NCBI RefSeq assembly: GCF_000017265.1
Contig: NC_011144.1
Location: 2,272,001 to 2,336,000 of the forward strand
Reading direction: 5' to 3'
DNA from: Phenylobacterium zucineum HLK1
GTDB lineage: Bacteria > Pseudomonadota > Alphaproteobacteria > Caulobacterales > Caulobacteraceae
DNA length: 64,000 nucleotides
Shown: positions 19,994 to 33,548 of the stretch, in pieces
How positions within the stretch are numbered: position 1 is the stretch's first letter
How the letters are laid out: the number at the start of each line of letters is the position of its first letter
The notes under the pieces: generated by a model
The model's input: the letters and a program-made list of their open reading frames with translations, nothing else
What the model was told of the DNA's origin: nothing
Databases searched by the model: none
Made by a program: the position numbers and the translations under genes

Positions 19994-21681
19994 CCCCTAC
20001 CCCCACCGCTCCCGACCGGCCCTTCCGACTGGGCGGGTTCGCCACCCTGACCGAGGCGCTGGACTTCGCCGCCCAGGGGCCCACGGGCGTGAACCTCTAC
20101 GGCCTGCGCGGCGAGCTGGTGCTCGCCCTGTCCTACGCCGAGCTGCGCGAGCGGGCCCGCGCCCTGGCCGCGCGCATCCTGGCGGCCGGGATCCGGCCGT
20201 TCGACCGCGTGGGCCTCGTCGCCGAGACCGACGCCGACTTCGTGGTCGCCTTCTTCGCCTGCCAGCACGCCCGGGTGACGCCCGCGCCGCTGGGCGGCCG
20301 CGAGGCCTATGTGGAGCAGATCGGCCGGATGCTGGGCTCGGCGCAGGCCTCGGCCGTGTTCGGCCCCGAGGCCCTGATCCCGTGGCTGCAGGAGGCGGCG
20401 CAGGCCGCCGGCGTGAGGCTCGCGGCCCGCGTCCAGGACCTGCCCGAGGCGCCCGCCGCCGACCTGCCCGCGCCGACGCCGGACGATCCCTGCTACGTGC
20501 AGTTCTCCTCGGGCAGCACGCGGCACCCGACGGGCGTCCTCTGCACCCACAGCGCCTTGATGGCCAACACCACCGCGATCACCCGCGACGGGCTGAAGGT
20601 GGTCCCGGCCGACCGGGCGTTCTCGTGGCTGCCGCTCTATCACGACATGGGCCTGGTGGGCTTCCTGATGGCCCCGCTGGCCAGCCAGATGACCGTGGAC
20701 CTGATGCCCACGGGCGCCTTCGTGCGCCGGCCGCTGCTGTGGCTGGACCTGATGTCGAAGAACCGGGCGACGATCTCGTACAGCCCGACCTTCGGCTACG
20801 AGCTGTGCGCCCGCCGCGGCGACGGCACGCGCGAGGGGCTGGACCTGTCGGCCTGGCGGATCGCCGGCTGCGGCGGCGACATGGTGCGGCCGGGCCCGCT
20901 GATGGCCTTCGCCGAGACGTTCGCGCCCGCCGGCTTCTCCCCCACGGCCTTCGTCGCCAGCTACGGCATGGCCGAGGCGACGCTGGCGCTGACCATGGCG
21001 CCGCTGGGCCAGGGACTGCGGTTCGAGACCGTCGACGTCGACCGGATGGAGCGCGACGGCGTGGTCGTCGGCGGCCGGGAAGGCCGCAGCCGGGCCTTCG
21101 TCCGCTGCGGGCCGGTGCTGCCCGGCCACGAGCTGGAGGTCCGCGACGAGGCGGGCGCCGCCCTGCCCGAGCTGAAGGTCGGCCGGGTGTTCGTGCGGGG
21201 CCCCAGCCTGATGCGCGGCTATTTCGGCGAGCCCGAGGCCTCGGCCAAGGTGCTGGGGCCGGACGGCTGGCTCGACACCGGCGACCTGGGCTTCCTGGTC
21301 GAGGGCGAGATCGTGCCGACGGGCCGCGCCAAGGACCTGATCCTGCTGAACGGCCGGAACGTCTGGCCGCAGGACCTGGAATGGTCCGCCGAGAGCGAGA
21401 TCGGCAAGCTGCGCAGCGGCGACGTGGCCGCGTTCTCGGTCGACCGCGACGAGGGCGAGCAGCTGGTCGTGCTGGTGCAGGCGCGCACCAGCGATCCCGA
21501 GGCGCGCCGGGCGCTGGCCGACGACGTCGCCGCCCTGCTCCGGGCCCGGCACGGCGTGGAGGCCCACGTGGAGCTGGTGGGGGCGCACGCCCTGCCGCAG
21601 ACCTCGTCGGGCAAGCTCAGCCGGTCCAAGGCCAAGGCGCTGTACCTGGCGGGCGCCTTCCGGGCGGAGGAGCCGGCCTGA
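19990..21681 (+). CDS. aasR: Fatty-acyl-AMP ligase / acyl-ACP synthetase of ceramide synthesis
   Basis: The 563-residue adenylate-forming enzyme probably activates a fatty acid and loads it on the adjacent ACP for ceramide synthesis. The phosphate loop reads SSGSTRHPTGVL, the SGSTR-P-GV form typical of fatty-acyl-AMP ligases rather than SGTTGxPKG of CoA ligases. Also present are LPLYHDMGLVGF, YGMAEATL, DTGDLGF and GRAKDLILLNGRN, and a C-terminal lysine region SSGKLSRSK. The TTG at 19990 overlaps the flippase stop and is the only start at the right place. It is syntenic with aasR in the Caulobacter sphingolipid cluster, upstream of cerR, acpR and spt. Confidence 0.88.
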   Translation: MTPTPTAPDRPFRLGGFATLTEALDFAAQGPTGVNLYGLRGELVLALSYAELRERARALAARILAAGIRPFDRVGLVAETDADFVVAFFACQHARVTPAPLGGREAYVEQIGRMLGSAQASAVFGPEALIPWLQEAAQAAGVRLAARVQDLPEAPAADLPAPTPDDPCYVQFSSGSTRHPTGVLCTHSALMANTTAITRDGLKVVPADRAFSWLPLYHDMGLVGFLMAPLASQMTVDLMPTGAFVRRPLLWLDLMSKNRATISYSPTFGYELCARRGDGTREGLDLSAWRIAGCGGDMVRPGPLMAFAETFAPAGFSPTAFVASYGMAEATLALTMAPLGQGLRFETVDVDRMERDGVVVGGREGRSRAFVRCGPVLPGHELEVRDEAGAALPELKVGRVFVRGPSLMRGYFGEPEASAKVLGPDGWLDTGDLGFLVEGEIVPTGRAKDLILLNGRNVWPQDLEWSAESEIGKLRSGDVAAFSVDRDEGEQLVVLVQARTSDPEARRALADDVAALLRARHGVEAHVELVGAHALPQTSSGKLSRSKAKALYLAGAFRAEEPA

Positions 21682-22607
21682 CGCGGCTCGCCGCCGTCAC
21701 CGGCGCCACCGGCTTCCTCGGCCGCCGGATCGTCCGCGCGCTGGCCGAGGACGGCTGGCGCGTGCGCATCCTGGCGCGGCGCGATCCCTTCGATCCCCTG
21801 TGGCGCGACCTGGAGCCCGAGCTGGTGCTGGGCGACCTGGCCGATTCGCGGGCCCTGGAGGCCCTGTGCCGCGGCGCCGACGCCGTGATCCACGGCGCGG
21901 CCCTGGTGAAGGCCCGCAGCGCCGGCCATTTCGCGGCGGTGAACCGGGAGGGCGCGCGCCGGCTGGCGGCGGCCGCCGGCGAGGTCCCCCACGTGCTGCT
22001 GGTCTCGAGCCTGGCGGCGCGGGAGCCGGCCCTGTCGCCCTACGCCGCCAGCAAGCGCGCCGCCGAGGACGCGATGGCCGAGGCGCTGGGGCCGCGACTC
22101 ACCATCGCCCGCCCGCCGGCGATCTACGGCCCCGGCGACCGCGAGCTGCTGCCGGTCTTCCAGGCGGCCTGCCGGCTGCCGGTGCTGCCCGTGCTCAACC
22201 GGACCGCGCGGGTGGGCATGATCCACGTGGAGGACGCGGCGCGCCAGATCGCCGCGCTCGCCGACCGGGCGCCCGGCCGCACCGTGGCGCTGAGCGACGA
22301 TCGCCCCGAGGGCTACGGCTGGCCCGAGCTGATGGCCGAGGCCGCCCGCGCCGTGGGGCGCGCCCCGCGCCTCGCCCGGATTCCGAAGGCGCTGGTCCAT
22401 CTCGTCGGAATCACAAATGATTTCAGCGCCGCGCTGGGGGCGGCGCCGATGCTGACCTCGGGCAAGGCGCGCGAGCTGCTGCATCCCGACTGGAGCATCC
22501 CGCCCGCCGAGCGGGCCGAGGACCTGCCGCCCCCGCGGCACACGCTTTCGGGGGGATTTCGGGACACGGTGGCGTGGTATAGGGCCGCCGGCTGGTTGAA
22601 ACATTAG
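21678..22607 (+). CDS. cerR: Ceramide reductase, extended SDR/NAD-dependent epimerase family
   Basis: The 309-residue Rossmann protein has the NAD(P) motif VTGATGFLGRRIV, the LLVSSLAAREPALSPYAAS segment holding the catalytic Ser and Tyr, and YAASK giving the YxxxK pair. In Caulobacter the gene at this position reduces the ketone of 3-keto-ceramide. No ATG, GTG or TTG exists in the right place. The best start is CTG at 21678, which overlaps the upstream stop as CTGA and has GGAGGAG about 7 bases before it. A signal peptide is not evident, although published work places CerR in the periplasm, so the true N-terminus deserves attention. Confidence 0.85.
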   Translation: MTRLAAVTGATGFLGRRIVRALAEDGWRVRILARRDPFDPLWRDLEPELVLGDLADSRALEALCRGADAVIHGAALVKARSAGHFAAVNREGARRLAAAAGEVPHVLLVSSLAAREPALSPYAASKRAAEDAMAEALGPRLTIARPPAIYGPGDRELLPVFQAACRLPVLPVLNRTARVGMIHVEDAARQIAALADRAPGRTVALSDDRPEGYGWPELMAEAARAVGRAPRLARIPKALVHLVGITNDFSAALGAAPMLTSGKARELLHPDWSIPPAERAEDLPPPRHTLSGGFRDTVAWYRAAGWLKH

Positions 22608-22713
22608 CTGCGGTTTTGTGACGTGCGGCGCAGCGGAAGGTGGAAATCCTAGGCCAACGTGCTTAGGTACCCCCGCTGCGCAAGCGATGTGTGCCGACGT
22701 GGGGGCGTACAAG

Positions 22714-22968
22714 ATGGTGGAACTCGCGACGGATCTGACCGTACGCGAAGTCGCGAAAGCGGCCGAGACCGTTCTCGGCCGCCCCGTCAACGTGACCCAC
22801 GAGACGGACATCGCGCGCGATCTCGCCGTCGATTCGCTGGCCCTGATGAACATCGTCATGGAGCTGGAGGATCGATTCGACCTGTCGATCCCGCTCGACC
22901 GGCTGGCCACGGTGCAGACCGTCGGCGACCTTTCCGAACTGATCAACACGCTGCGGATGAAGGCTTAA
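22714..22968 (+). CDS. acpR: Acyl carrier protein for sphingolipid synthesis
   Basis: The 84-residue acidic protein has the phosphopantetheine attachment motif DLAVDSLALMN with the Ser near residue 45, and helices typical of ACPs (IVMELEDRFDLSIPLD). It presumably carries the acyl chain delivered by the acyl-AMP ligase for use by the serine palmitoyltransferase encoded next. I chose the ATG at 22714, which follows a GTGGGGG stretch; an open frame extending 32 codons upstream looks non-coding. It lies 2 bp before spt. The 106 bp gap before it is relatively AT-containing and may hold a separate promoter. Confidence 0.93.
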   Translation: MVELATDLTVREVAKAAETVLGRPVNVTHETDIARDLAVDSLALMNIVMELEDRFDLSIPLDRLATVQTVGDLSELINTLRMKA

Positions 22969-22970
22969 GG

Positions 22971-24188
22971 ATGGGGCTTCTCGACAAGCACCTGGGCTAT
23001 CGCGCCCCCCTGGAAGGCATCCGCGCTGCGGGCGCCGACCCGTCCAACGTCCGGTTCGACGCCGTGCTCTCGCCCACTGAGGGCGTGCTGGCCGGCCAAC
23101 CGGTGATCCTGCTGGGCACCAACAACTATCTCGGGCTGACCTTCGACCCGGCCTGCATCGAGGCCTCGGCCGAGGCGGTGCGCGAATGGGGCACGGGCAC
23201 GACCGGCTCGCGGTTCGCCAACGGCACCTTCGCCGGCCACACGGCGCTGGAGCAGGCCCTGGCCGGCTTCTACGGCCGCAAGCACGCGATGGTCTTCACG
23301 ACCGGCTACCAGGCCAACCTGGGCACGATCTCGGGCCTCGTCGGCCGCGGCGACCATCTGATCCTGGACGCCGACAGCCACGCCTCGATCTATGACGCGG
23401 CCAAGCTGTCGGGCGCCGAAGTCATCCGCTTCCGCCACAACGACCCGGACGACCTGCACAAGCGCCTGCGGCGCCTGGGCGACGCGCCCGGCGGACGGCT
23501 GATCGTCGTCGAGGGCATCTACTCGATGATCGGCGACGTGGCCCCGCTGAAGGAGTTCGTCGACGTCAAGCGCGAGATGGGCGGCCACCTGCTGGTGGAC
23601 GAGGCCCACTCCATGGGCGTGCTGGGCGAGAAGGGCCGCGGCCTGGCCGAAGCGGCCGGCGTCGAGGACGGCGTCGACTTCATCGTCGGCACCTTCTCCA
23701 AGAGCCTGGGCTCGGTCGGCGGCTTCCTCGTCTCGGACGAGGAGAACTTCGACCTGCTGCGCATCGTCAGCCGGCCCTACATGTTCACCGCCTCGCTGCC
23801 GCCGGCGGTGATCGCCTCGACCCTCACCGCCCTGAAGCGGCTGGAAGACGAGCCCGGTCTGCGCGCGCGGCTGTCGGCCAACGCCGACCGGCTCTACGAG
23901 GGCCTGCGCGACATGGGCTATGCGGTCGGCCCGCACGCCAGCCCGATCACCGCCGTCGAGATGCCCGACCAGGCCACCGCCGTCGGCATGTGGAACGCGC
24001 TGCTGCAGAACGGCGTCTACCTGAACCTCGCCATCCCGCCGGCCACGCCCGAGAACAAGTCGCTGCTGCGCTCCAGCGTCAGCGCGGCCCACACGACCGA
24101 GCAGATCGACACCGTCCTCGGCGTCTTCGAGCAACTGGGCCAGGAATTCGGCCTGCTGGCCGGCCGCCGCCGCGCCGCCACCGCCTAG
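22971..24188 (+). CDS. spt: Serine palmitoyltransferase
   Basis: This PLP enzyme condenses serine with an acyl-ACP or acyl-CoA to form 3-keto-sphinganine, the committed step of sphingolipid synthesis. The 405-residue protein belongs to the alpha-oxoamine synthase family: LGTNNYLGLT near the N-terminus, TGTTGSRFANGT, the Asp/His of LLVDEAHSMGVLG and the PLP-lysine motif GTFSKSLGSVGG. Position directly behind an ACP gene, and the presence of ceramide reductase and ceramide synthase genes, distinguish it from KBL or ALAS relatives. The ATG follows the ACP stop by two bases. It converges on the Tam41-like gene with 6 bp between them. Confidence 0.93.
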   Translation: MGLLDKHLGYRAPLEGIRAAGADPSNVRFDAVLSPTEGVLAGQPVILLGTNNYLGLTFDPACIEASAEAVREWGTGTTGSRFANGTFAGHTALEQALAGFYGRKHAMVFTTGYQANLGTISGLVGRGDHLILDADSHASIYDAAKLSGAEVIRFRHNDPDDLHKRLRRLGDAPGGRLIVVEGIYSMIGDVAPLKEFVDVKREMGGHLLVDEAHSMGVLGEKGRGLAEAAGVEDGVDFIVGTFSKSLGSVGGFLVSDEENFDLLRIVSRPYMFTASLPPAVIASTLTALKRLEDEPGLRARLSANADRLYEGLRDMGYAVGPHASPITAVEMPDQATAVGMWNALLQNGVYLNLAIPPATPENKSLLRSSVSAAHTTEQIDTVLGVFEQLGQEFGLLAGRRRAATA

Positions 24189-24194
24189 CCCACG

Positions 24195-25091
24195 CTAGCC
24201 TCGGGGCCGGCGCGCCCGCCGCAGTCGCCACAGCACGCCGGGCGCCGCCAGGATCGGGTGGCGCTCGCGGAACGGCGTGACCTCCAGGGCGATCCCGGTG
24301 TGCTTCTCGATCTTGTAGGCGGCGTAGCGGGCCGCGCCCTCGAAGGTGAACGCCGCCTTGGCGAGCCGGGCGAGGTTGAGCGGCTTTCCCAGGGCCGCGC
24401 GCAGGCCCCAGCGCGGCAGCCCCCGCTTCCGCGGCCAGTAGACCCCGTCCATCTCGGCGAACTCGACCCCCGCAGCCTTCCAGGCGAGCGGCAGGACGGC
24501 GGCGAAGCGGCCGGCGTTCGGCCCCAGCACCTGGTCGGCGCGGTCGGGGCTCTCCACCCGGAACTCGGCGGCGTAGGTCCGGCGGAACAGGGCCGCCCAG
24601 TAGGCCTCGGCGGGCCCCTGCTCGGGCCCCAGGGCGGCGGCGTAGCGGGAGGCGGTCTTCACCGCCTCGGCCACCGCCGCCGGCACGGCCGCAGCCTCGC
24701 CGCCCGCCCAGGCGACGGCGGCCGGCTGGACGAAGCGGGTCCAGATGGTGGTGTCCAGCGTCCGCCCCTCGGCCGCCCGGCGGAAGACGTCCAGCGGCAG
24801 GGTCGCCACCTTGGCCTGCAGGCGCCGGCCCTCCCAGTCGAACTCGTGGTAGCTGACCTCGGGCCAGAGCACCCGCTCGGCGAGGCCGTGGAAGCCGCTG
24901 CGGTGCGGCCGGCGGGTCAGACGGTAGAAGTCCAGGAGGCCCGACAGGTCGCCCGTCCTCAGCGTCGAGCCGTAGTAGAGGATCGCCACGTCGCGGGAAG
25001 GGTCGGCCAGCCCGGCGGCGAAGGCCGTGACCGCGGCGGGCAGCGGACGGGCCAGCTCCTCGCCGATCAGGGTCTCCAGCGGCCCGCTCAC
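24195..25091 (-). CDS. cpgC: Tam41-like nucleotidyltransferase (candidate CDP-ceramide synthase)
   Basis: The 298-residue soluble protein looks like the Mmp37/Tam41 family, the mitochondrial CTP:phosphatidate cytidylyltransferase. Near residue 40, ILYYGSTLRTGDLSGLLDF matches the YGSG...IDLI nucleotidyltransferase site. GRRLQAKVATLPLDVFRRA, TTIWTRFVQPA, RVESPDRADQVLGPN and a basic C-terminal helix follow in the same order as in Tam41. It is encoded after the lipid kinase (GTGA overlap) and the CDP-alcohol transferase, so it could turn ceramide-1-phosphate into CDP-ceramide. That activity is inferred. Position matches the third cpg gene of Caulobacter ceramide-phosphoglycerate synthesis; the symbol rests on synteny. 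Confidence 0.72.
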   Translation of the reverse strand: MSGPLETLIGEELARPLPAAVTAFAAGLADPSRDVAILYYGSTLRTGDLSGLLDFYRLTRRPHRSGFHGLAERVLWPEVSYHEFDWEGRRLQAKVATLPLDVFRRAAEGRTLDTTIWTRFVQPAAVAWAGGEAAAVPAAVAEAVKTASRYAAALGPEQGPAEAYWAALFRRTYAAEFRVESPDRADQVLGPNAGRFAAVLPLAWKAAGVEFAEMDGVYWPRKRGLPRWGLRAALGKPLNLARLAKAAFTFEGAARYAAYKIEKHTGIALEVTPFRERHPILAAPGVLWRLRRARRPRG

Positions 25092-26002
25092 ACGAACACG
25101 AACTCCAGGTCCGGCCCCTGGCGCACGGTGAGGTCGCCGCCCGGATAGATCTCGCCGTCCAGGGTGAAGCCGCCCTCCATCGACACCGACAGGCTGGAGA
25201 CGTCCCGCCGGCGGTAGCCTGCCCGCTCGAGCCACGGCGGCTGCGCGCCGCGCAGGATGGTGGGGACGGCCATCGGCAGGCGCCGCGGCGGCGCCTCCAC
25301 AGCCAGGGCCTTGAGGCCCTCATGCGGCGGACCGAACGGCTGCAGGCCGAGGGGGAAGCGCTTGAGCGTCGCGGCCAGGACCAGGAACCAGTCGCGGGTC
25401 TCGGGGGCGGCCTCGCCCAGGGCCAGCGTCGCCGGCTCGCCCCGGCGCCAGGGATCCTGCGGGCCGCCCGCCAGCGTGCGCGCCGCGGCGCCGGCGATGG
25501 TCATGACGATGGCGGCGTTGTCGAAGAAGCCGAGGCCGTGGGTGCGCTGGGCCAGCTCGGTGCCGCGCACGAAGGCGCCCATGCCGAACAGGAAGCCGCG
25601 CAGCTCGGGCTCGTCCGCGCCGGCGCGGACCACCTCAAGGCAGGCCCGGACCTTGCGCTTGGCCGGGTCGCGGGCCGCCGCCAGCATGGCCCGCACGGGC
25701 GTTCCCAGCGGCACCCCCAGGTCGAGCGCAAGCGCATTGGTCTTGCCGTTGGGGATCACGCCGAAGGTCGGCAGCCGGTCGCCGTAGGCCTCGGTCGCCC
25801 GGGTCAGCACGTCGCGCACCGTGCCGTCGCCGCCGTCGATGACGACGAAGTCCACGCCCGACTTGGCGAACCAGGCCAGGGCCTCGGTGAGGTCGTCCGG
25901 CCGTTCGGGCACGGCCTCCAGCACGCCAGGCGGCGCAAGGGCGGGCGCCCCCGCCAGGTTGCGGTGGCTCTTGAGGTTGCGGATGACGCCGGCGCGGATC
26001 AA
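25088..26002 (-). CDS. cpgB: Diacylglycerol-kinase family lipid kinase (ceramide kinase)
   Basis: This 304-residue protein has a DAGK catalytic domain. The ATP-binding/catalytic glycine motif is VVIDGGDGTVRDVLTRA near residue 55, followed by IPNGKTNALALDLGVPLG, corresponding to the P-GTxNxxA motif of the family. The second, beta-rich domain continues to the C-terminus (FTLDGEIYPGGDLTV). In Caulobacter the gene in this place (as I recall CCNA_01218, CpgB) phosphorylates ceramide. The start is taken as the TTG at 26002 overlapping the upstream stop as TTGA; no better candidate exists. Confidence 0.85.
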   Translation of the reverse strand: MIRAGVIRNLKSHRNLAGAPALAPPGVLEAVPERPDDLTEALAWFAKSGVDFVVIDGGDGTVRDVLTRATEAYGDRLPTFGVIPNGKTNALALDLGVPLGTPVRAMLAAARDPAKRKVRACLEVVRAGADEPELRGFLFGMGAFVRGTELAQRTHGLGFFDNAAIVMTIAGAAARTLAGGPQDPWRRGEPATLALGEAAPETRDWFLVLAATLKRFPLGLQPFGPPHEGLKALAVEAPPRRLPMAVPTILRGAQPPWLERAGYRRRDVSSLSVSMEGGFTLDGEIYPGGDLTVRQGPDLEFVFV

Positions 26003-27144
26003 CGCGAGAGCCAGGAGACGACCCGGCCTTTCGGCATGGCCATCGCCTGCACCACCTGGGCCAGGTGGACGACGAGGCAGATCGCCGTCCAGACCGCCAC
26101 CAGGAACAGGCCGATCTCGGGCCTGCCCGCGAGCCATGCCAGGGTCAGCACGATCAGGTTCGGGTTCCGCCGGGCGGTGATCAGCCGGAAGAAGCTGTCG
26201 AACGGACGCCAGGCGTGCACGTGGAAGCCGAAGAGGCGCATGAACACCCCCTCCTCCACCCGCTGCAGCACGTAGCCGGCCAGGATCACGCCCAGGGTCA
26301 GCTCGGGGAACGGCGGCGGCAGGCCGACCTGGAAGCAGCCGACGTACCAGGCCCACCACCAGAAGGGCGGATGGACGAGGTCGATGCCGTGGTCGAAGAC
26401 GTTGCCCCACTTCGACGAGGTCATGGTGGTGCGGGCCAGCTTGCCGTCCACCGTGTCGAGGAAGGTCATGATCCAGCCGGCCAGCAGGCCCCAGCCGAAC
26501 TCGCCGATCCAGAACAGCCAGAAGGCGGCCAGGACCAGCAGGAAGCCCGCGAAGGTCACCATGTTGGGCGTCAGCTTCGCCTCAGCGCACCAGCGGGTGA
26601 CGATCCGCGCCGGAACCGGCCAGACGTACTTGGTGACGACGTCGGTGACGCCCTTGTACGAGCCGGCGAAGGTGCGGGCCTCGATGGCGCGGACGTTATC
26701 GGCGGTCAGCCGCTCCAGCACCGGCGCCTCGCGCTTGCGCAGCGCCTCGTTGTAGGCAAGCTCGGCCGGCGACAGCGCCTGCAGCCCCGGAGGCGCGCGG
26801 CCGGCCTGCAGGTCCGCCGACGCCGCCGCGGCGTCCGCCGCCGGCACGTGGGCCGCCACCGCCCGGCCGTCGTCGGTCACCAGCACCGTTCCGGGGCGCC
26901 GGGACAGCGTCGCCACCAGCCCCTCGTCATAGACCCAGTCGCCCAGGGTCAGCACCACCGTGCGTCCCGAGGCGACGTCCGCCGCCTCGGCCGGCTCCAC
27001 GCCCGCGCGCACATAGGTCCGGCGCAGCCGCTCGCGCGCCGTCATCCCCCACAGCCGCACCTCGCCCGAGCCCAGGATGAGCCCCAGCGGCGCGGTCTTG
27101 CCCTCGCCCGTGTTCGTCAAAAGTCTCGCGCGCCTCTCACGCAA
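25999..27144 (-). CDS. cpgA: Nucleotidyltransferase-like/CDP-alcohol phosphatidyltransferase fusion
   Basis: This 381-residue membrane protein probably attaches the head group in sphingolipid synthesis. Residues 1 to about 165 are soluble and nucleotidyltransferase-like (LILGSGEVRLWG, VLTLGDWVYDEG). From about residue 180 there are membrane segments and a complete CDP-alcohol phosphotransferase motif, DTVDGKLAR, followed at the expected spacing by Gly and two Asp (WGNVFDHGID). It forms an operon with the kinase and Tam41-like genes. The start is uncertain: TTG at 27144 or TTG at 27120, neither with a strong ribosome site. The cpgA symbol rests on synteny with Caulobacter. Confidence 0.8.
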   Translation of the reverse strand: MRERRARLLTNTGEGKTAPLGLILGSGEVRLWGMTARERLRRTYVRAGVEPAEAADVASGRTVVLTLGDWVYDEGLVATLSRRPGTVLVTDDGRAVAAHVPAADAAAASADLQAGRAPPGLQALSPAELAYNEALRKREAPVLERLTADNVRAIEARTFAGSYKGVTDVVTKYVWPVPARIVTRWCAEAKLTPNMVTFAGFLLVLAAFWLFWIGEFGWGLLAGWIMTFLDTVDGKLARTTMTSSKWGNVFDHGIDLVHPPFWWWAWYVGCFQVGLPPPFPELTLGVILAGYVLQRVEEGVFMRLFGFHVHAWRPFDSFFRLITARRNPNLIVLTLAWLAGRPEIGLFLVAVWTAICLVVHLAQVVQAMAMPKGRVVSWLSR

Positions 27145-27200: not shown

Positions 27201-28112
27201 TTGTCCACCTTCCGCCTCGCGCACCTGTCTGACCCGCACCTGCCGCCGCCGGCCCGGGCGCTGCGGCTGGCCGACATGGCCTCGAAACGGGCGCTTAGCC
27301 GCTTGGCCTGGCGACGCAAGCGCCATCGCCACAGCCCCGCCGTCCTCGACGCCCTGATCGCCGACCTGCGGCGATGCGCCCCGGACCACATCGCCATAAC
27401 CGGCGACCTCACCAATTTCGCGACACACGAGGAATTCGCCGCCGCCGCCGAGTGGCTGAGGACCCTGGGCGATCCCGCCTCCGTCACCGTCAGCCCGGGC
27501 AACCACGACGCCCTCGTCGCCCACCGCACGCCCGACCGGTTCGCCCCCTGGGCCCCCTGGCTGGGCGATACGCCGCAGGCCGACTTCCCGCACGTGCGGG
27601 TCCGCGGGTGCGTGGCGATCGTCAACGCCTGCACGGCGGTCCCCACCGCGTGGCGCCTCGCCCAGGGCGCGCTGGGGCAGGACCAGATCGCGCGGCTCGA
27701 GGCCGCCCTGCGCCGGGCGAAGGCCGAGGGGCTCTACCGAATCGTCCTGCTGCACCATCCGCCCGCCGAGGGCGCCGTGTCGGCCCGCAAGGCGCTGACC
27801 GACGCCGGCCGGTTCCGGGCGGTGCTGGAGGCGGTCGGCGCCGAGCTCGTGCTGCACGGCCACGCCCACGACGCCCTGCTGCACCGCATCCCCGGCCCGC
27901 AGGGGGCCATACCGGTGCTGGGGGTCCCCTCGGCTTCGGCCCCGCCGGGCGGCCACGACCCCGCGGCCCAGTGGCGGCTGATCGAGGTGACGCGCCGGAG
28001 CGGCGGCTTCTCCACGCGCATCGAGGCGCGGGGGATCGCCCCCGGAAACACCGTCGAGCGCCTGGGCGCCTACGCCCTGGCCGCCGACCGGGCCGCGGGC
28101 CTGGCGGCCTAG
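27201..28112 (+). CDS. Calcineurin-like metallophosphoesterase
   Basis: The 303-residue protein has all the di-metal ligand motifs of the family: LSDPHL (DxH), ITGDLTNF (GD), SPGNHDAL (GNHD), VLLHHPP and LHGHAHDAL (GHxH). It should hydrolyse a phosphate ester; related proteins act on cyclic nucleotides, sugar phosphates or lipid phosphates. It is divergent from the cpg-like genes and begins the rightward half of the sphingolipid region, so a phosphorylated lipid or head-group intermediate is possible but unproven. The start is the TTG at 27201, with no clear ribosome site; it gives a good N-terminus (MSTFRLAHLSDPHL). Confidence 0.9.
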   Translation: MSTFRLAHLSDPHLPPPARALRLADMASKRALSRLAWRRKRHRHSPAVLDALIADLRRCAPDHIAITGDLTNFATHEEFAAAAEWLRTLGDPASVTVSPGNHDALVAHRTPDRFAPWAPWLGDTPQADFPHVRVRGCVAIVNACTAVPTAWRLAQGALGQDQIARLEAALRRAKAEGLYRIVLLHHPPAEGAVSARKALTDAGRFRAVLEAVGAELVLHGHAHDALLHRIPGPQGAIPVLGVPSASAPPGGHDPAAQWRLIEVTRRSGGFSTRIEARGIAPGNTVERLGAYALAADRAAGLAA

Positions 28113-28638: not shown

Positions 28639-29829
28639 GTGAGCCTCATCGACCGTTACCTTCTCCGGATGGCGTTCTGGCCCATGGTCGGGGCCACGGC
28701 GGTGACGCTGGTCGCCCTGCTGCTGGAACGGATCCTGCGCCTGCTGGACCTGCTGTCGGAAAGCAGCGAGCGGTTCACCTTCGTCGCCCAGCTGGCCGTC
28801 AACCTCGTGCCGCACTACGTGGGCCTGACCCTGCCCGCGGCGTTCTTCATCGCCCTGATCATCGTCGTGAACCGGATGAATCAGGCCTCTGAGATCGACG
28901 CCCTGCTGGCGGCCGGCGTCTCGCTGACGCGGCTGGCGGCGCCCTATCTGGTGCTGGCGGGGGTTCTCAGCTTCCTGACGCTGATCGTGTTCGGCGCGCT
29001 GCAGCCCTACAGCCGCTACGCCTACCGCGCGGTGCTGCACGCGGCCCAGAACGCCGGCTGGAGCGGCCAGGTGCCCGAGGGGACGATCATCGCCCCCAAC
29101 GACGACCTGATCATGACCACCGACCAGGCCGACGCCGCGGGCCAGCGGCTGACCCGGGTGTTCATCCGCCGCCTGACGCCCGAGGGACGCGAAGAGGTCA
29201 CCACGGCGGGCGTCGCCGAGCTTCGCCGGACCGCCGACGGTAAGAACGTCACCCTCATGCTGAAGGACGGCCAGCAGCTGCGCTTCAACCGGCGCGGCGA
29301 GCCCGAGCTGCTCTCGTTCGAGGACTTCACCATGCAGCTGCCGCTGAGCGGGCCCGCCCGGCTGCTGCGCGCCCGCGGCGGCGACGAGCGCGAGCTCAAC
29401 CTCTTCGAGCTGGCCAAGAAGGCGAACGATCCCCAGTCGGTGATCCCGCGCGAGACCCTGCTGGCCGAGCTCTACGGGCGCCTGGCGCGGGCGCTGGCCC
29501 TGCCGCTGCTGCCGCTGCTGGCCGTGCCGCTGGGCCTGTCGGCCAAGCGCAGCGGCCGCGCGCCGGGGGTGATCGTGGGCGGGATCTTGCTGCTCGCCTT
29601 CCACCACCTCATCCAGCTGGGCCAGAGCTTCGCCGAGACGGGCCGCGCGCCGGCCGAGGCGGGCGTCGGGATCCCCTTCGTCGCCTTCGCGGCGATCTGC
29701 TTCACCGTCTTCCTCACCAGCCGCAAGCGGCCGGGCGAGACCCCCGTCGGACGGGTGATGGAGCACCTGGCGAACGTCATCGTGCGCGTGCGCAAGCGGG
29801 TGAAGCTGCGCCGGAAGGCCCTGCCGTGA
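28639..29829 (+). CDS. LptF/LptG (YjgP/YjgQ) family permease, first of pair
   Basis: This inner-membrane protein of the LptF/LptG family normally extracts LPS from the membrane together with the LptB ATPase. The 396-residue product has three N-terminal membrane segments (up to about residue 125), a periplasmic beta-rich domain (about 130-275; VFIRRLTPEGREEVTTAG) and three C-terminal segments with LALPLLPLLAVPLGLSAKRS, the family's hallmark region. The GTG start lies at 28639 behind a GGGGGAA. The stop overlaps the second permease gene (GTGA). The pair sits between sphingolipid genes, not with lptD, so it may export a sphingolipid rather than LPS (inference). Confidence 0.88.
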   Translation: MSLIDRYLLRMAFWPMVGATAVTLVALLLERILRLLDLLSESSERFTFVAQLAVNLVPHYVGLTLPAAFFIALIIVVNRMNQASEIDALLAAGVSLTRLAAPYLVLAGVLSFLTLIVFGALQPYSRYAYRAVLHAAQNAGWSGQVPEGTIIAPNDDLIMTTDQADAAGQRLTRVFIRRLTPEGREEVTTAGVAELRRTADGKNVTLMLKDGQQLRFNRRGEPELLSFEDFTMQLPLSGPARLLRARGGDERELNLFELAKKANDPQSVIPRETLLAELYGRLARALALPLLPLLAVPLGLSAKRSGRAPGVIVGGILLLAFHHLIQLGQSFAETGRAPAEAGVGIPFVAFAAICFTVFLTSRKRPGETPVGRVMEHLANVIVRVRKRVKLRRKALP

Positions 29830-30881
29830 GCCTCGGCCTCTACCTCTTCAGGCTCGCCTTCGGCCGCATCCTGGCGGCGCTGGCGGTGCTGGTCGGCATC
29901 CTGCAGATCCTCGACCTGCTGGACGTCACGACCGAGATCCTCGACCGCGAGCTGGGGGCGCAGGGCGTGGCCTACTATGCGCTGCTGCGCCTGCCGCGGC
30001 TGGTCGAGCAGGCCGCGCCGCTGGCGGTGCTGGCGGGCTCGCTGTTCGCCTTCGCCAAGCTGGCCGGCGAGAGCGCGGTGACGGCGATGCGCTCCACCGG
30101 CATCTCGGCCTACCGGATCACGCTGCTGGCGCTGCCGGCCGCGGCCCTGGTCGCCGCCGCCCAGCTCGTCATCGGCATGGCCGTCGCGCCCCGCACCGAC
30201 GCGGCCCTGACCCGCTGGTGGCAGGCCACCACCCCGCGGGAAGAGGTCAAGCCGCAGGACGTGATCACCTTCCGGGTCGGCGACGACATCGTCTCGGCGC
30301 GCCCGTCGGCCGACGCCCAGCGGATGTCGGAGGTCGTCATCTACCGGCGCGACGGCGCCGGCCGGCTGGTGCAGCGCACCGCCGCCGACGCGGCCGTCTA
30401 CGATCAGGGCGCGTGGCGGCTGATCGCCCCGCGGTTCGAGGCCATCAGCGAGGGCGAGGTGCAGACCGGCGCCGCCGAATCCATGACCTGGACCCGGTCG
30501 CTGCGGCCCGCCGACGTCCGCGCCCTGCAGTCCGGCGGCTCGACCATCTCGGCCGCGGAGGCCCGGCGCGCGCTGCACGGCGGCGTCTCGGTGCGGCCCA
30601 AGACCTACTACGACACCCAGCTCCACCGCGCCTGGGCCGCGCCCGCGGCGTGCCTCGTCATGCTGCTGCTGGCCGCCCCGGCCGCCCTCGCCAACTTCCG
30701 CGGCGGAGGGACCACGCTGATGGTCCAGTGCCTGGCCGCGGGGCTGCTGTTCCTGGTCTTCGACGGCGCCTTCACGGCCCTCGGCGAGAGCGGCGCGGCG
30801 CCGGCCATGCTCGCGGCCTGGGGGGCCCCCGTCATCTTCGGGGCCCTCGGCGTCACGGCCCTGCTCTACCTGGAGGGCTGA
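29826..30881 (+). CDS. LptG/LptF (YjgP/YjgQ) family permease, second of pair
   Basis: This 351-residue protein is the partner of the preceding permease. Membrane segments lie at about residues 10-30, 55-75 (LVEQAAPLAVLAGSLFAFAKL) and 95-120, then a periplasmic domain carries EVVIYRRDGAGRLVQR and LQSGGSTISAAEARRAL. Three further segments follow from about residue 265 (AWAAPAACLVMLLLAAPAAL). No ATPase gene accompanies the pair, so it would have to borrow LptB from elsewhere. It ends one base into the ceramide synthase start (TGATG), so permease and ceramide synthase are probably translated together. Confidence 0.87.
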   Translation: MSLGLYLFRLAFGRILAALAVLVGILQILDLLDVTTEILDRELGAQGVAYYALLRLPRLVEQAAPLAVLAGSLFAFAKLAGESAVTAMRSTGISAYRITLLALPAAALVAAAQLVIGMAVAPRTDAALTRWWQATTPREEVKPQDVITFRVGDDIVSARPSADAQRMSEVVIYRRDGAGRLVQRTAADAAVYDQGAWRLIAPRFEAISEGEVQTGAAESMTWTRSLRPADVRALQSGGSTISAAEARRALHGGVSVRPKTYYDTQLHRAWAAPAACLVMLLLAAPAALANFRGGGTTLMVQCLAAGLLFLVFDGAFTALGESGAAPAMLAAWGAPVIFGALGVTALLYLEG

Positions 30882-32047
30882 TGGCCTACGACCGCCCCGC
30901 TTCCGCCGTGCAGGTCGTCCCCGTGGCCTCGGCCGCCGAGCTGGAGCGGTTCATCCGCGTGCCGATGCGGCTGGGCGCCGGCGACCCCAACTACATCGCC
31001 CCCCTGCTGGCCGAGCGGCGCGAGGCGCTGAGCGCCAAGGGCAACCCGTTCTTCGCCCACGCCGACGTGCAGTTCTGGCTGGCGGTGAAGGACGGCCGCG
31101 ACGTGGGCCGGATCAGCGCCCAGATCGACCACCTGAACCCGCAGACCCGCGAGGGCTACGGCAACTTCGGCCTGATCGCCGCCGAGGACGACGCCGAGGT
31201 GTTCGCCGCCCTGTTCGCCGCCGCCGAGGCGTGGCTGCGCGAGCGCGGCTGCCGCGCCGCCCTTGGCCCCATCAACCTGTCCACCAACGAGGAGGTGGGC
31301 CTGCTGGTCGAGGGCCACGACACACCGCCGATGTTCATGATGGGCCACGACGCCCCCTGGACCGGGAGCCGCATCGAAGGCCAGGGCTACGCCAAGGCCA
31401 GGGACCTCTACGCCTACGCCTGCGACGTCTCGCACGACCTGCCGCCGTCGATCCTGCGCCGGGTGCGCAAGGCGCCGCCCGAGGGCGTGGTGCTGCGCAA
31501 GCTGGACATGAAGCGGTTCGGCGAGGAGGTCCGCACCCTCACCGAAATCCTCAACGACGCCTGGTCGGGCAACTGGGGCTTCACGCCCACCACCGAGGCC
31601 GAGACCAAGCAGCTCGCCAACGCCCTGAAGTTGGTGCTGGACCCGGACCTGACCTGGTTCGCCGAGATCGACGGCGAGGCCGCGGGGTTCATGGTGCTGC
31701 TGCCGAACGTCAACGAGGCGATCGCCGACCTTCGGGGCCGGCTGGCGCCGTTCGGCTGGGCCAAGCTGCTGTGGCGGCTGAAGGTGCGGCGGGTGAAGAC
31801 GGGCCGCGTGCCGCTGATGGGCGTGAAGCGCCGGTTCGCCGGCGCCCACCGCGGCCAGCTCCTGCCCTTCCAGCTGATCGACGCCGTGGTGCAGGAGGCC
31901 CGGCGCAAGGGCTACCAGCGCTACGAGCTGTCGTGGGTGCTGGAGGACAACCTGCCGATGCGGCGGATCTGCGAGGCGGGCGGCGCGCGGATCTACAAGA
32001 CCTACCGGCTCTACGAGAAGGCCCTCGACGACAAGGGTCTGGCGTGA
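30881..32047 (+). CDS. bcerS: Bacterial ceramide synthase (GNAT-fold acyltransferase)
   Basis: This enzyme adds the second acyl chain to the sphingoid base amine. The 388-residue protein begins MAYDRPASAVQVVPVASAAE and has two acyltransferase-like halves. Recognisable parts are RLGAGDPNYIAPLLAERREA, FWLAVKDGRDVGRISAQID, ALGPINLSTNEEVGLLVEG and a C-terminal RYELSWVLEDNLPMRRICEA with the GNAT-like AGG end. Unlike eukaryotic ceramide synthases it is soluble. Its identity follows from resemblance and from synteny with the Caulobacter bCerS gene (as I recall CCNA_01212) near spt. The ATG at 30881 overlaps the LptG-like stop; the stop overlaps the next gene's GTG. Confidence 0.87.
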   Translation: MAYDRPASAVQVVPVASAAELERFIRVPMRLGAGDPNYIAPLLAERREALSAKGNPFFAHADVQFWLAVKDGRDVGRISAQIDHLNPQTREGYGNFGLIAAEDDAEVFAALFAAAEAWLRERGCRAALGPINLSTNEEVGLLVEGHDTPPMFMMGHDAPWTGSRIEGQGYAKARDLYAYACDVSHDLPPSILRRVRKAPPEGVVLRKLDMKRFGEEVRTLTEILNDAWSGNWGFTPTTEAETKQLANALKLVLDPDLTWFAEIDGEAAGFMVLLPNVNEAIADLRGRLAPFGWAKLLWRLKVRRVKTGRVPLMGVKRRFAGAHRGQLLPFQLIDAVVQEARRKGYQRYELSWVLEDNLPMRRICEAGGARIYKTYRLYEKALDDKGLA

Positions 32048-32796
32048 ACGACCTTTCGGCCCTGATCCTCGCGGGCTCGCGCGGCGGCGCGGACCCGGTC
32101 GCCGACTACGCGGGCGTGGCGCACAAGGCGTTGATCGAGCTGGAGGGACGCACCCTGCTCGCGCGGGTCGCGGAGGCCCTGAAGGACGCCGGCGCAGGAC
32201 GGATCGCCGTTTCCTGCAGCGACCCGGCCGTGGCGACGGCCGCCGAGGCGCTCGGCCTGGAGGTGCTGCCGGCCGCCGAGGGCCCGAGCCTCAGCGTGCG
32301 CGCCGCCGCCGAGCGGCTGGGCTTTCCCCTGCTGGTCACCACCGCCGATCACGCCCTGCTCCGCCCGGAATGGATCGCCCGCTTCCGCGCCGACTTGCCG
32401 GCGGACGTGGACGTCGCGGCGATGATGGCCCGCCGCGCCGAGGTGGAGGCGGCCGCGCCGGGCACGCAGCGCACCTACCTCAAGCTCTCGGACGGCGAGT
32501 GGTCGGGCTGCAACCTGTTCTGGCTGCAGAGCGAGCGGGCGCTGGGCGCGGTGGCGTTCTGGCGACGGCTCGAGGCCGAGCGGAAGAACCCGGTGGCCAT
32601 GGCCGGTCTGCTGGGACCGGGCATCCTGCTGCGCTACCTCGCGGGACGCCTCGGGATGACCGACGCGGTCCGGCGGCTGGGCGAGCTGGCGCACGTGCGG
32701 GCCGCGGTCGTGCCGACGCCCTACGGCCTGGCGGCCGTGGACGTGGACAAGCCCGCCGACCTCGACCTGGTGCGCAGGCTGGTCGGCGAGGCCTAG
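32044..32796 (+). CDS. MobA-like nucleotidyltransferase of the sphingolipid operon
   Basis: The 250-residue protein is a single-domain nucleotidyltransferase fold. It has ALILAGSRGGADPVADYAG, where other members have LAGGxSxRMG, a Lys in HKALIELEGRTLLARV, and VTTADHALLRPEWI with the metal-binding Asp. Later come GCNLFWLQSERALG and a C-terminal AVDVDKPADLDLV similar to MobA/IspD-type enzymes. It probably makes an activated (CDP or other) compound, perhaps for the sphingolipid head group; the substrate is unknown. Its GTG overlaps the ceramide synthase stop (GTGA). Its TAG shares bases with the stop of the convergent gene. Confidence 0.82.
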   Translation: MNDLSALILAGSRGGADPVADYAGVAHKALIELEGRTLLARVAEALKDAGAGRIAVSCSDPAVATAAEALGLEVLPAAEGPSLSVRAAAERLGFPLLVTTADHALLRPEWIARFRADLPADVDVAAMMARRAEVEAAAPGTQRTYLKLSDGEWSGCNLFWLQSERALGAVAFWRRLEAERKNPVAMAGLLGPGILLRYLAGRLGMTDAVRRLGELAHVRAAVVPTPYGLAAVDVDKPADLDLVRRLVGEA

Positions 32797-33548
32797 GCCT
32801 TCACCATCTCCTTCGCGGCCCAGCCGGCCGAGAGCCTGGTCAGGTTGTCGACGTCGGCGGGGAAATCCATCTCGCCCCACTGCAGCCCCTCGATCGACTG
32901 GACGCGGACGTCCACGCCGGCCTTGGCCAGCTCGTCGATGACGCTGAGGTACCAGCGCTTGAGGCCCTCGGGCCGGCGCAGGGCCTGCTCCACGCCGGCC
33001 TGGAACTTGGCGGCGCCGGCGGGCGAGAAGCGCAGGAAGCCGATGGACTCGGCGTCGTAGGCCTCGATGGTCTTGCCGATGGCCAGGAGGCGGCCGTTGT
33101 CGGTCAGCACCTTCATGTCGTCGGCGTCGTAGCCGCCCTTGCGGTCGACGGTGACGGTGATCTCGGCGGGCGGCGCCTCGATCAGGCGCTCGACGATGCC
33201 CGGGCCCGGCAGGGTGTCGCCGTTCAGCAGCAGGACGTCGCGGTCGAACTCCTGGCGGACGATCCAGCACGAGGCGAGGTTGTCGGCCACCGAGTAGAAG
33301 GGGTTGAACGCGGTCCGCACCGGCATGCGCAGGCCCAGGCGCGCGACCTCGGCCTCCACCGCCTCGGCGCGGAAGCCGGTGACGATCACCGCCTCGTCGA
33401 TCCCGGCGGCCTCCAGGCGCATCAGCTGCCAGGCCAGGAGCGTGCGCCCCGACAGCTCCACGAGGCACTTCGGGCGGGTTTCGGTGAGCGGGAGCAGGCG
33501 CTTGCCCTGCCCGGCGCTCAGGATGATGGCTCTGTTGGGCGACTTCAC
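32793..33548 (-). CDS. Sugar/phospho-alcohol nucleotidyltransferase
   Basis: This 251-residue NTP-transferase has the canonical N-terminal signature AIILSAGQGKRLLPLTETR-PK (motif LSAGxGxRL...PK), then LLAWQLMRLEAAGID and VLLLNGDTLPGPGIVER with the metal-binding Asp. The pattern resembles phosphocholine cytidylyltransferase/LicC-like and sugar-phosphate nucleotidylyltransferases. A SVADNLASCWIVRQEF segment is typical of the LicC-like subgroup. It is convergent with the preceding nucleotidyltransferase; the two stop codons interlock in CCTAG. A role in head-group activation for the neighbouring lipid genes is plausible, not shown. Confidence 0.87.
   Translation of the reverse strand: MKSPNRAIILSAGQGKRLLPLTETRPKCLVELSGRTLLAWQLMRLEAAGIDEAVIVTGFRAEAVEAEVARLGLRMPVRTAFNPFYSVADNLASCWIVRQEFDRDVLLLNGDTLPGPGIVERLIEAPPAEITVTVDRKGGYDADDMKVLTDNGRLLAIGKTIEAYDAESIGFLRFSPAGAAKFQAGVEQALRRPEGLKRWYLSVIDELAKAGVDVRVQSIEGLQWGEMDFPADVDNLTRLSAGWAAKEMVKA

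Follow-up and report, generated by a model that had tools for sequence, protein, structure and literature searches.

A predicted CDP-ceramide step in a proposed two-module ceramide phosphoglycerate operon of Phenylobacterium zucineum

Introduction

How is ceramide-1-phosphate turned into ceramide phosphoglycerate (CPG)? The question is raised by three genes, counterparts of cpgA, cpgB and cpgC of Caulobacter crescentus, that lie in a 64 kb stretch of the Phenylobacterium zucineum HLK1 genome (contig NC_011144.1, positions 2,272,001 to 2,336,000), here called the window and numbered from its first base. In C. crescentus CPG requires CC_1161 (CpgC) and CC_1160 (CpgB), and CPG2 requires CC_1159 (CpgA), CC_1153, CC_1152 (CpgD) and in part CC_1158 (PMC11324152, 2024); the final lipid is described in print as helping Caulobacter to survive without lipopolysaccharide. 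In vitro, CpgB acts as a ceramide kinase (PMC10331486, 2023). CpgD makes cytidine diphosphate (CDP)-glycerate (PMC12275187, 2025) and CpgA has been proposed as its user (PMC12275187 and the 2026 preprint PMC13228409), and both of the latter call the mechanism of CpgC unidentified. An InterPro CDP-diacylglycerol (CDP-DAG) synthase domain is reported in CC_1161, with a proposal of a nucleoside diphosphate-activated ceramide and a further enzyme postulated for the ensuing condensation (PMC11324152). The idea of an activated ceramide is not wholly new, as this speculation on CpgC shows; our literature search found no paper naming CDP-ceramide and no assay of CpgC.

A preliminary description of the window placed CpgB, CpgC and CpgA in a straight line, CpgA attaching a phospho-alcohol to CDP-ceramide. 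That is probably not the logic of the operon. We consider it rather probable that these genes are the head-group part of a CPG locus built of two modules, in which CpgC makes CDP-ceramide. For the step from ceramide-1-phosphate to CPG this is a structure-based assignment, and its named residues make it directly testable. If it is true, sphingolipids have a CDP-lipid chemistry of their own that depends on a relative of a mitochondrial enzyme, and one more transferase is needed to complete the pathway.

CpgC is predicted to have the Tam41 fold

An alignment of 61 CpgC sequences, the window protein included, yielded an AlphaFold2 model with a mean predicted local distance difference test score (pLDDT) of 94.3 and a predicted TM-score (pTM) of 0.91. 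Searched against the PDB with Foldseek, the model has five matches at E<=0.001 and all five are Tam41: 7ecd, the Firmicutes enzyme with CTP-Mg, is best (E 1.5e-7, query TM-score (TMq) 0.54), and the 6ig4 and 6ig2 chains have E-values of 3.0e-7 to 4.7e-6 and TMq of 0.47-0.50. The next match, an aminoglycoside nucleotidyltransferase, lies at E 1.3e-3 and TMq 0.27. Structure comparison thus bears out the Tam41 likeness suggested in the preliminary description. Tam41 itself makes CDP-DAG, as is established in print.

Sequence identity in these structural alignments is 12-15% over 276-288 columns, and a Pfam scan of the 19 members of our alignment A1 gave no match to PF09139. The converse search, with PF09139, found one match in 200 genomes of the phylum, under the cut-off, and four at E<=0.01 (the earlier one included) in 300 genomes of that match's order, one of them over the cut-off. 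All four are CpgC homologues and are adjoined by a CpgB-type kinase; the CpgC profile A3, which includes one of them (L103) as a row, scores them at 305-382 bits. The homologue over the cut-off, L154, reaches 28.3 bits where 24 are required (E 1.5e-6), scores 305 bits with the CpgC profile and has CpgB adjacent; L103, L155 and L156 fall under the cut-off. In phmmer searches of the PDB the sole three matches of L154 are Tam41 chains (E 0.14-0.66), L103 ranks Tam41 6ig2 (E 1.6) below an antibody-like chain to which it is unrelated (E 0.27), and a profile of the four homologues finds 6ig2 at E 0.052. The A1 and A3 profiles retrieved no Tam41 from the PDB by hmmsearch, and one chance photosystem match each. 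The proposed kinship with Tam41 is accordingly drawn from a model structure and from four homologues of a single family code (f45).

The YGST...DF site described earlier is present as Y40-G41-S42 and D54-F55, and the 'ordered later motifs' hold too, with K94, R119-F120, P123, Y173, E176 and R178 following the Tam41 order K, RF.KP, Y..D.R. Y40, G41, S42, D54, Y56, K94, R119, F120, Y173, E176 and R178 are invariant in all 61 sequences and P123 is kept in 60. When CpgC homologues are aligned with PDB entries, their K, RF.P and Y..[DE].R fall on the corresponding Tam41 motifs, and a forced global hhalign of the window protein with Tam41 gives the same register, though it is not significant. CpgC ends in a basic tail, with a net charge of +3 or more in 53/61 sequences, which would fit a peripheral membrane protein. 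CpgC thus shares with Tam41/Mmp37 (6ig2/6ig4, 7ecd) the predicted fold, the motif order and the basic tail; it differs in its low identity, in the lack of a Pfam match for the window protein, in a nearly invariant E83 and in its setting among ceramide synthesis genes, in genomes that have CdsA as well.

CpgB and CpgC form a core that accompanies ceramide synthesis

CpgB belongs to the DAG kinase family, as first described: it matches Pfam DAGK_cat (PF00781) at 49.3 bits and carries GGDGT in alignment A7. The kinase step, ceramide to ceramide-1-phosphate, is upheld by the in vitro activity of the C. crescentus enzyme (PMC10331486), from which window CpgB shows no notable difference, sharing DAGK_cat, GGDGT and adjacency to CpgC. 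A scan of genome contigs confirmed at least 555 relatives of CpgC, and locus comparisons below use the best 80 of these. A CpgB match adjoins CpgC in 79 of the 80, L061 being the exception, and among 50 whole-genome loci, the window's own included, 47 have CpgB on the same strand within a 1.5 kb flank. CpgC stands without a neighbouring CpgB in L119 (G351), L121 (G397) and L128 (G432). In loci of Erythrobacter and Qipengyuania type (e.g. L051, L058, L063, L064 and L087) the CpgB-CpgC pair is alone, with no other pathway gene in the flank.

With profile A3, CpgC was detected in 38 of the 289 genomes searched in the class, among them G000. Co-occurrence was scored in 80 genomes: 52 with CpgC (all 38 class matches, 8 of 13 from the same genus, 5 of 5 from the same order, and G160) and 28 without it, hand-picked and so non-random, from the non-matching rows. 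Cut-offs were placed at gaps in the score lists, and Fisher values from these comparisons ignore relatedness. Spt (>=470 bits) is present in 51/52 genomes with CpgC vs 3/28 without, and CerS in 51/52 vs 4/28, one of the four being partial (G041); in G517 the neighbour of CpgC is an Spt-like gene that reaches 220-234 bits. Around Spt in the three CpgC-less genomes that have it, the stretches examined, one of them just 10.6 kb long, hold none of CpgB, CofC, CpgA and CpgD.

CpgA (E<1e-100) and CpgD (>=269 bits) each occur in 31/52 genomes with CpgC and 0/28 without, and these are the same 31 genomes (31/31 vs 0/49), leaving 21 of the 52 without CpgA. Five CpgC-less genomes with weak CpgA matches (E 1.5e-10 to 3e-4) were counted as lacking it; the remaining CpgD-profile matches score 136 bits or less, yet at E<=0.001 the profile matches something in 79 of the 80 genomes. 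The 52 genomes span 24 family codes, three of which mix members with and without CpgA. When CpgA is mapped onto a CpgC tree that covers 48 of the 52, its distribution calls for at least 12 changes, seven of them forced by supported (starred) branches, and since the CpgD set equals the CpgA set, CpgD follows in each change; the pair test on this tree was run on the single shared set. CpgB-CpgC is thus a core found with ceramide synthesis, and CpgD-CpgA an add-on gained or lost together.

The CofC-like gene (>=115 bits) occurs in 50/52 genomes with CpgC and 0/28 without. It is found in 19 of the 21 that lack CpgA, with strong scores in 13 of these. Six of the 50 (G283, G384, G046, G185, G460 and G189) score 116-155 bits, lie away from CpgC and may belong to another family, and in G414 the gene is cut by a contig end.

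The donor of CpgA

The perfect CDP-alcohol motif reported for CpgA is confirmed: DTVDGKLARTTMTSSKWGNVFDHGID is the sole DxxDGxxAR(8)GxxxDxxxD match in six frames of the window, and PF01066 scores 36.3 bits against a cut-off of 22. The use of CDP-ceramide by CpgA, which the preliminary description had added, is not supported and probably wrong, because strains without CpgA make CPG and CpgA, absent from 21 of the 52 genomes, tracks CpgD. Indeed, in a CC_1159/CC_1160 double mutant CC_1160 alone restores CPG (PMC11324152), so that CpgA is dispensable for CPG.

Neither its fold nor its family decides which donor CpgA uses, as its matches include both donor types. The CpgA model (pLDDT 83.4, 18 sequences) has its best Foldseek E-value with the phosphatidylinositol phosphate (PIP) synthase entry 5d91 (E 3.0e-11, TMq 0.59) and its highest TM-scores with AF2299 (4o6n, 4o6m and 4q7c, TMq 0.64-0.68); further matches are more PIP synthases and the IPCT-DIPPS fusion 4mnd, and a single domain shows weak similarity to the soluble cytidylyltransferases 2xme (E 0.06-0.2). 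PIP synthase entries are about as close to CpgA as the AF2299/IPCT-DIPPS entries, and we take the top PIP synthase crystals to carry the AF2299 soluble domain, which would explain their whole-length matches. AF2299 and IPCT-DIPPS (4o6n, 4mnd) are matched over 367-440 columns at TMq 0.59-0.68, with two differences: the cytidylyltransferase partner CpgD is a separate gene, and the predicted acceptor is a sphingolipid. The top structural match of CpgD is the inositol-1-phosphate cytidylyltransferase 4JD0 (PMC12275187). CpgD and CpgA thus look like the two parts of IPCT-DIPPS encoded by separate genes, and this likeness, with the co-occurrence and the genetics, favours a soluble CDP-alcohol donor for CpgA.

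Some clusters carry a second CDP-alcohol phosphotransferase (DSVDGK.AR) between LptG2 and CerS, a candidate user of CDP-ceramide there; the clusters with CpgA paralogues sit in genomes that have CpgA. A PF01066 search, which misses distant members, found a single protein in each of G001, G009, G046 and G050, presumably PgsA. This makes the housekeeping transferase one candidate user of CDP-ceramide.

Proposed pathway and alternatives

The formation of a phosphodiester from ceramide-1-phosphate needs activation of the kind that Tam41 gives phosphatidic acid, which makes CDP-ceramide the simplest product of CpgC and, consistent with the model structure, our best guess. In the lipid activation module CpgB would act as ceramide kinase and CpgC would transfer CMP from CTP onto the resulting ceramide-1-phosphate, to give CDP-ceramide and pyrophosphate. 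CpgC would be a peripheral cytidylyltransferase of Tam41 fold, with D54 as its catalytic residue, the lysine K94 and a basic tail at the C-terminus. A separate transferase would then swap CMP for glycerate or phosphoglycerate, yielding CPG. In the head-group activation module CpgD, as in C. crescentus in vitro, would make CDP-glycerate, from which CpgA, a CDP-alcohol phosphotransferase of the membrane whose N-terminal domain resembles cytidylyltransferases, would transfer phosphoglycerate onto CPG. The first diester would be built by lipid activation, the second by head-group activation. A wider proposal, for which the balance is only slightly favourable, is that CpgC founds a sphingolipid branch of Tam41, a CTP:ceramide-1-phosphate cytidylyltransferase, with CDP-ceramide as a branch point in at least 24 sampled family codes and the head groups finished by CpgD-CpgA in one part of the lineages and by other enzymes elsewhere.

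Several observations weigh against this two-module pathway. The TM-scores with Tam41 are moderate (0.47-0.54), the window CpgC has no Pfam family at E<=1 and no NCBIfam match, and a local hhalign with a two-sequence Tam41 fragment gives a probability of 0.2%, not significant. Tam41 retains just one of the fold's three acids (PMC11646218), and strand 89-99 of window CpgC carries no acid; E83 is a candidate second acid, kept in 60/61 sequences (12/14 in A3), which weakens the case for a one-acid, Tam41-like state. The use of CTP is inferred from Tam41, and 3 of the 50 loci (L119, L121 and L128) lack an adjacent CpgB. As to the missing transferase, we know of none that uses CDP-ceramide, and the stretches read in 19 of the 21 CpgA-less genomes with CpgC hold no CpgA-profile match and no strict or loosened CDP-alcohol motif, in a search whose positive control, G160, carries the motif and in which other genes were not Pfam-scanned individually. 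PIP synthases use CDP-DAG, a CDP-lipid, and they head the CpgA matches by Foldseek E-value and by NCBIfam score (PIPSynth, 46.5 bits, below its cut-off of 170), so that the donor could be a CDP-lipid. CofC, finally, tracks CpgC although loss of CC_1153 does not stop C. crescentus from making CPG: either the gene does something else where CpgA is missing, or a part of the published order is lacking. As a separate observation, E83 might be a second metal ligand, one not reported for Tam41 in the available passages of PMC11646218.

The straight line of the preliminary description, with CpgA taking CDP-ceramide and a phospho-alcohol, gains from the overlap of the three genes, from the confinement of CpgA to genomes with CpgC among the 80, and from the PIP synthase scores, but the CPG made without CpgA and the exact match of CpgA with CpgD leave it quite improbable. 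We give equally little weight to a direct joining of glycerate to ceramide-1-phosphate by CpgC, the published CPG scheme, with no released liponucleotide: genetics has turned up no other gene for this step and no CDP-alcohol motif was seen in the 19 neighbourhoods, but the reaction is called energetically not very favourable (PMC11324152) and the predicted fold is that of a nucleotidyltransferase.

CpgC may instead be a nucleotidyltransferase for another substrate or nucleotide: it could, for instance, join ceramide-1-phosphate with a nucleoside triphosphate different from CTP, or act on a phosphoglycerate. The distance of CpgC from Tam41 in sequence allows this, and since CpgC and CofC-like genes occur together, the two might share out the substrates in another way; we nevertheless think it unlikely, as the best structural match is CTP-bound Tam41, the pairing with a lipid kinase is tight and a maker of CDP-glycerate, CpgD, is already in print. 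That CpgC merely supports phospholipid supply as a second CDP-DAG synthase would accord with what Tam41 makes, but is very improbable: the CdsA family (PF01148) is present in 80/80 genomes, so that CpgC is not the sole candidate for that activity, CpgC follows the ceramide genes, and the CC_1161 mutant lacks CPG (PMC11324152).

Organisation of the locus

The three tandem genes are real, lie on the minus strand where first described (Table 1) and overlap by four bases at both junctions (TTGA and GTGA), CpgB starting with TTG and CpgC with GTG. Their identification as counterparts of the Caulobacter cpg genes also stands: they are cpgA, cpgB and cpgC of Phenylobacterium type within a complete CPG locus, which has a flippase, AasR, CerR, AcpR and Spt on one flank of the operon and a phosphoesterase, a HIT protein, LptF2, LptG2, CerS, the CofC-like gene and CpgD on the other. 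The genes, surroundings and order match C. crescentus CC_1168-CC_1152 as given in PMC11324152 (cpgABC, CC_1159-1161; cpgD, CC_1152), in a different genus, the closest named relatives among the best 80 loci being Phenylobacterium with 80-82% identity to CpgC. Most of the 15 window genes queried recur in other Caulobacteraceae loci of that set, and all 15 recur in the same order in L024; this conserved order, with the recurrence of CpgC relatives, indicates that the three-gene arrangement is not due to chance. A promoter scan of the DNA found none (0.1 expected) and a terminator scan found two terminator-like sites (0.9 +/- 1.0 expected). Clustering of raw open reading frame (ORF) neighbours in 35 loci was discarded, since antisense ORFs of the GC-rich DNA swamped the signal.

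Table 1. Genes and motifs of the window, and recurrent genes of related loci (rows with L numbers, in the numbering of those loci)
Feature	Position	Strand	Basis
AasR, CerR, AcpR ceramide genes	20000..22968 (approximate outer bounds)	+	synteny; names and order from PMC11324152
Spt, serine palmitoyltransferase	22971..24188	+	A6 profile, 793 bits
CpgC (CC_1161/CCNA_01219 counterpart), Tam41-fold nucleotidyltransferase, predicted CTP:ceramide-1-phosphate cytidylyltransferase	24195..25091	-	AlphaFold2 model; Foldseek; homologue L154 over PF09139 cut-off
CpgC YAAEFRVE, residues 173-180, aligned to Tam41 SYxGDxRM region	24552..24575	-	alignment; PDB alignments
CpgC RFVQP, residues 119-123, aligned to Tam41 RFQKP	24723..24737	-	alignment; PDB alignments
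CpgC K94, aligned to Tam41 K of 'IKYGV/KYGI'	24810..24812	-	61/61; register from PDB alignments
CpgC E83, strand before K94	24843-24845	-	60/61 aligned sequences
CpgC D54, acid after YGS; residue 56 is Tyr	24930..24932	-	D54, Y56 in 61/61
CpgC YGSTLR, residues 40-45	24957..24974	-	YGS, L44, R45 invariant in alignment A2
CpgB, ceramide kinase counterpart (DAGK_cat)	25088..26002	-	PF00781; pairing with CpgC
CpgB GGDGT motif	25820..25834	-	alignment A7
CpgA, CDP-alcohol phosphotransferase, predicted CDP-glycerate user	25999..27144	-	PF01066; fold search; CpgD co-occurrence
CpgA DxxDGxxAR(8)GxxxDxxxD motif	26380..26457	-	six-frame motif scan
Calcineurin-like phosphoesterase (CC_1158 counterpart)	27201..28112	+	PF00149
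LptF2/LptG2 permeases, probable sphingolipid transport	28639..30881	+	synteny; function as proposed in PMC11324152
CerS, bacterial ceramide synthase (CC_1154 counterpart)	30881..32047	+	GNAT match
CofC-like nucleotidyltransferase (CC_1153 counterpart)	32044..32796	+	Pfam, NCBIfam, profile searches
CpgD counterpart (CTP:phosphoglycerate cytidylyltransferase in C. crescentus)	32793..33548	-	NTP transferase Pfam matches; A9 profile, 396 bits
Second CDP-alcohol phosphotransferase	L157 5911-8202 (-); L160 13082-14329; L161 7031-8431 (-); L162 6136-7527		motif scan
DUF2141 neighbour	L051 10900-11397 (-); L159 6888-7385 (-); L158 6369-6890		PF09912 (L051); annotation
Sterol desaturase/hydroxylase-like gene	L134 2731-3534; L138 16581-17345; L139 16278-17042; L140 1592-2377; L144 15218-16051

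Two further genes recur near CpgC. A DUF2141 protein is assigned by PF09912 in L051 and by annotation in two records, and a cluster of look-alike ORFs is found in 8/20 loci. A gene resembling sterol desaturases and fatty acid hydroxylases, identified by look, lies beside CerS or CofC in 5/20 loci; L158 has a sterol desaturase family annotation, possibly a ceramide hydroxylase.

CpgC matches also occur in plasmid records. The match is annotated 'hypothetical protein' in the 15 plasmid records listed (H1-H15) of 17, and likewise in the three that were opened. On pDCB2 of Diaphorobacter sp. JS3051 (L157), a conjugative plasmid typed as IncP, a CpgC head-group cluster comprises genes for the kinase, two CDP-alcohol transferases, CpgD, a CofC-like protein and LptFG, which suggests that the pathway may move between bacteria.

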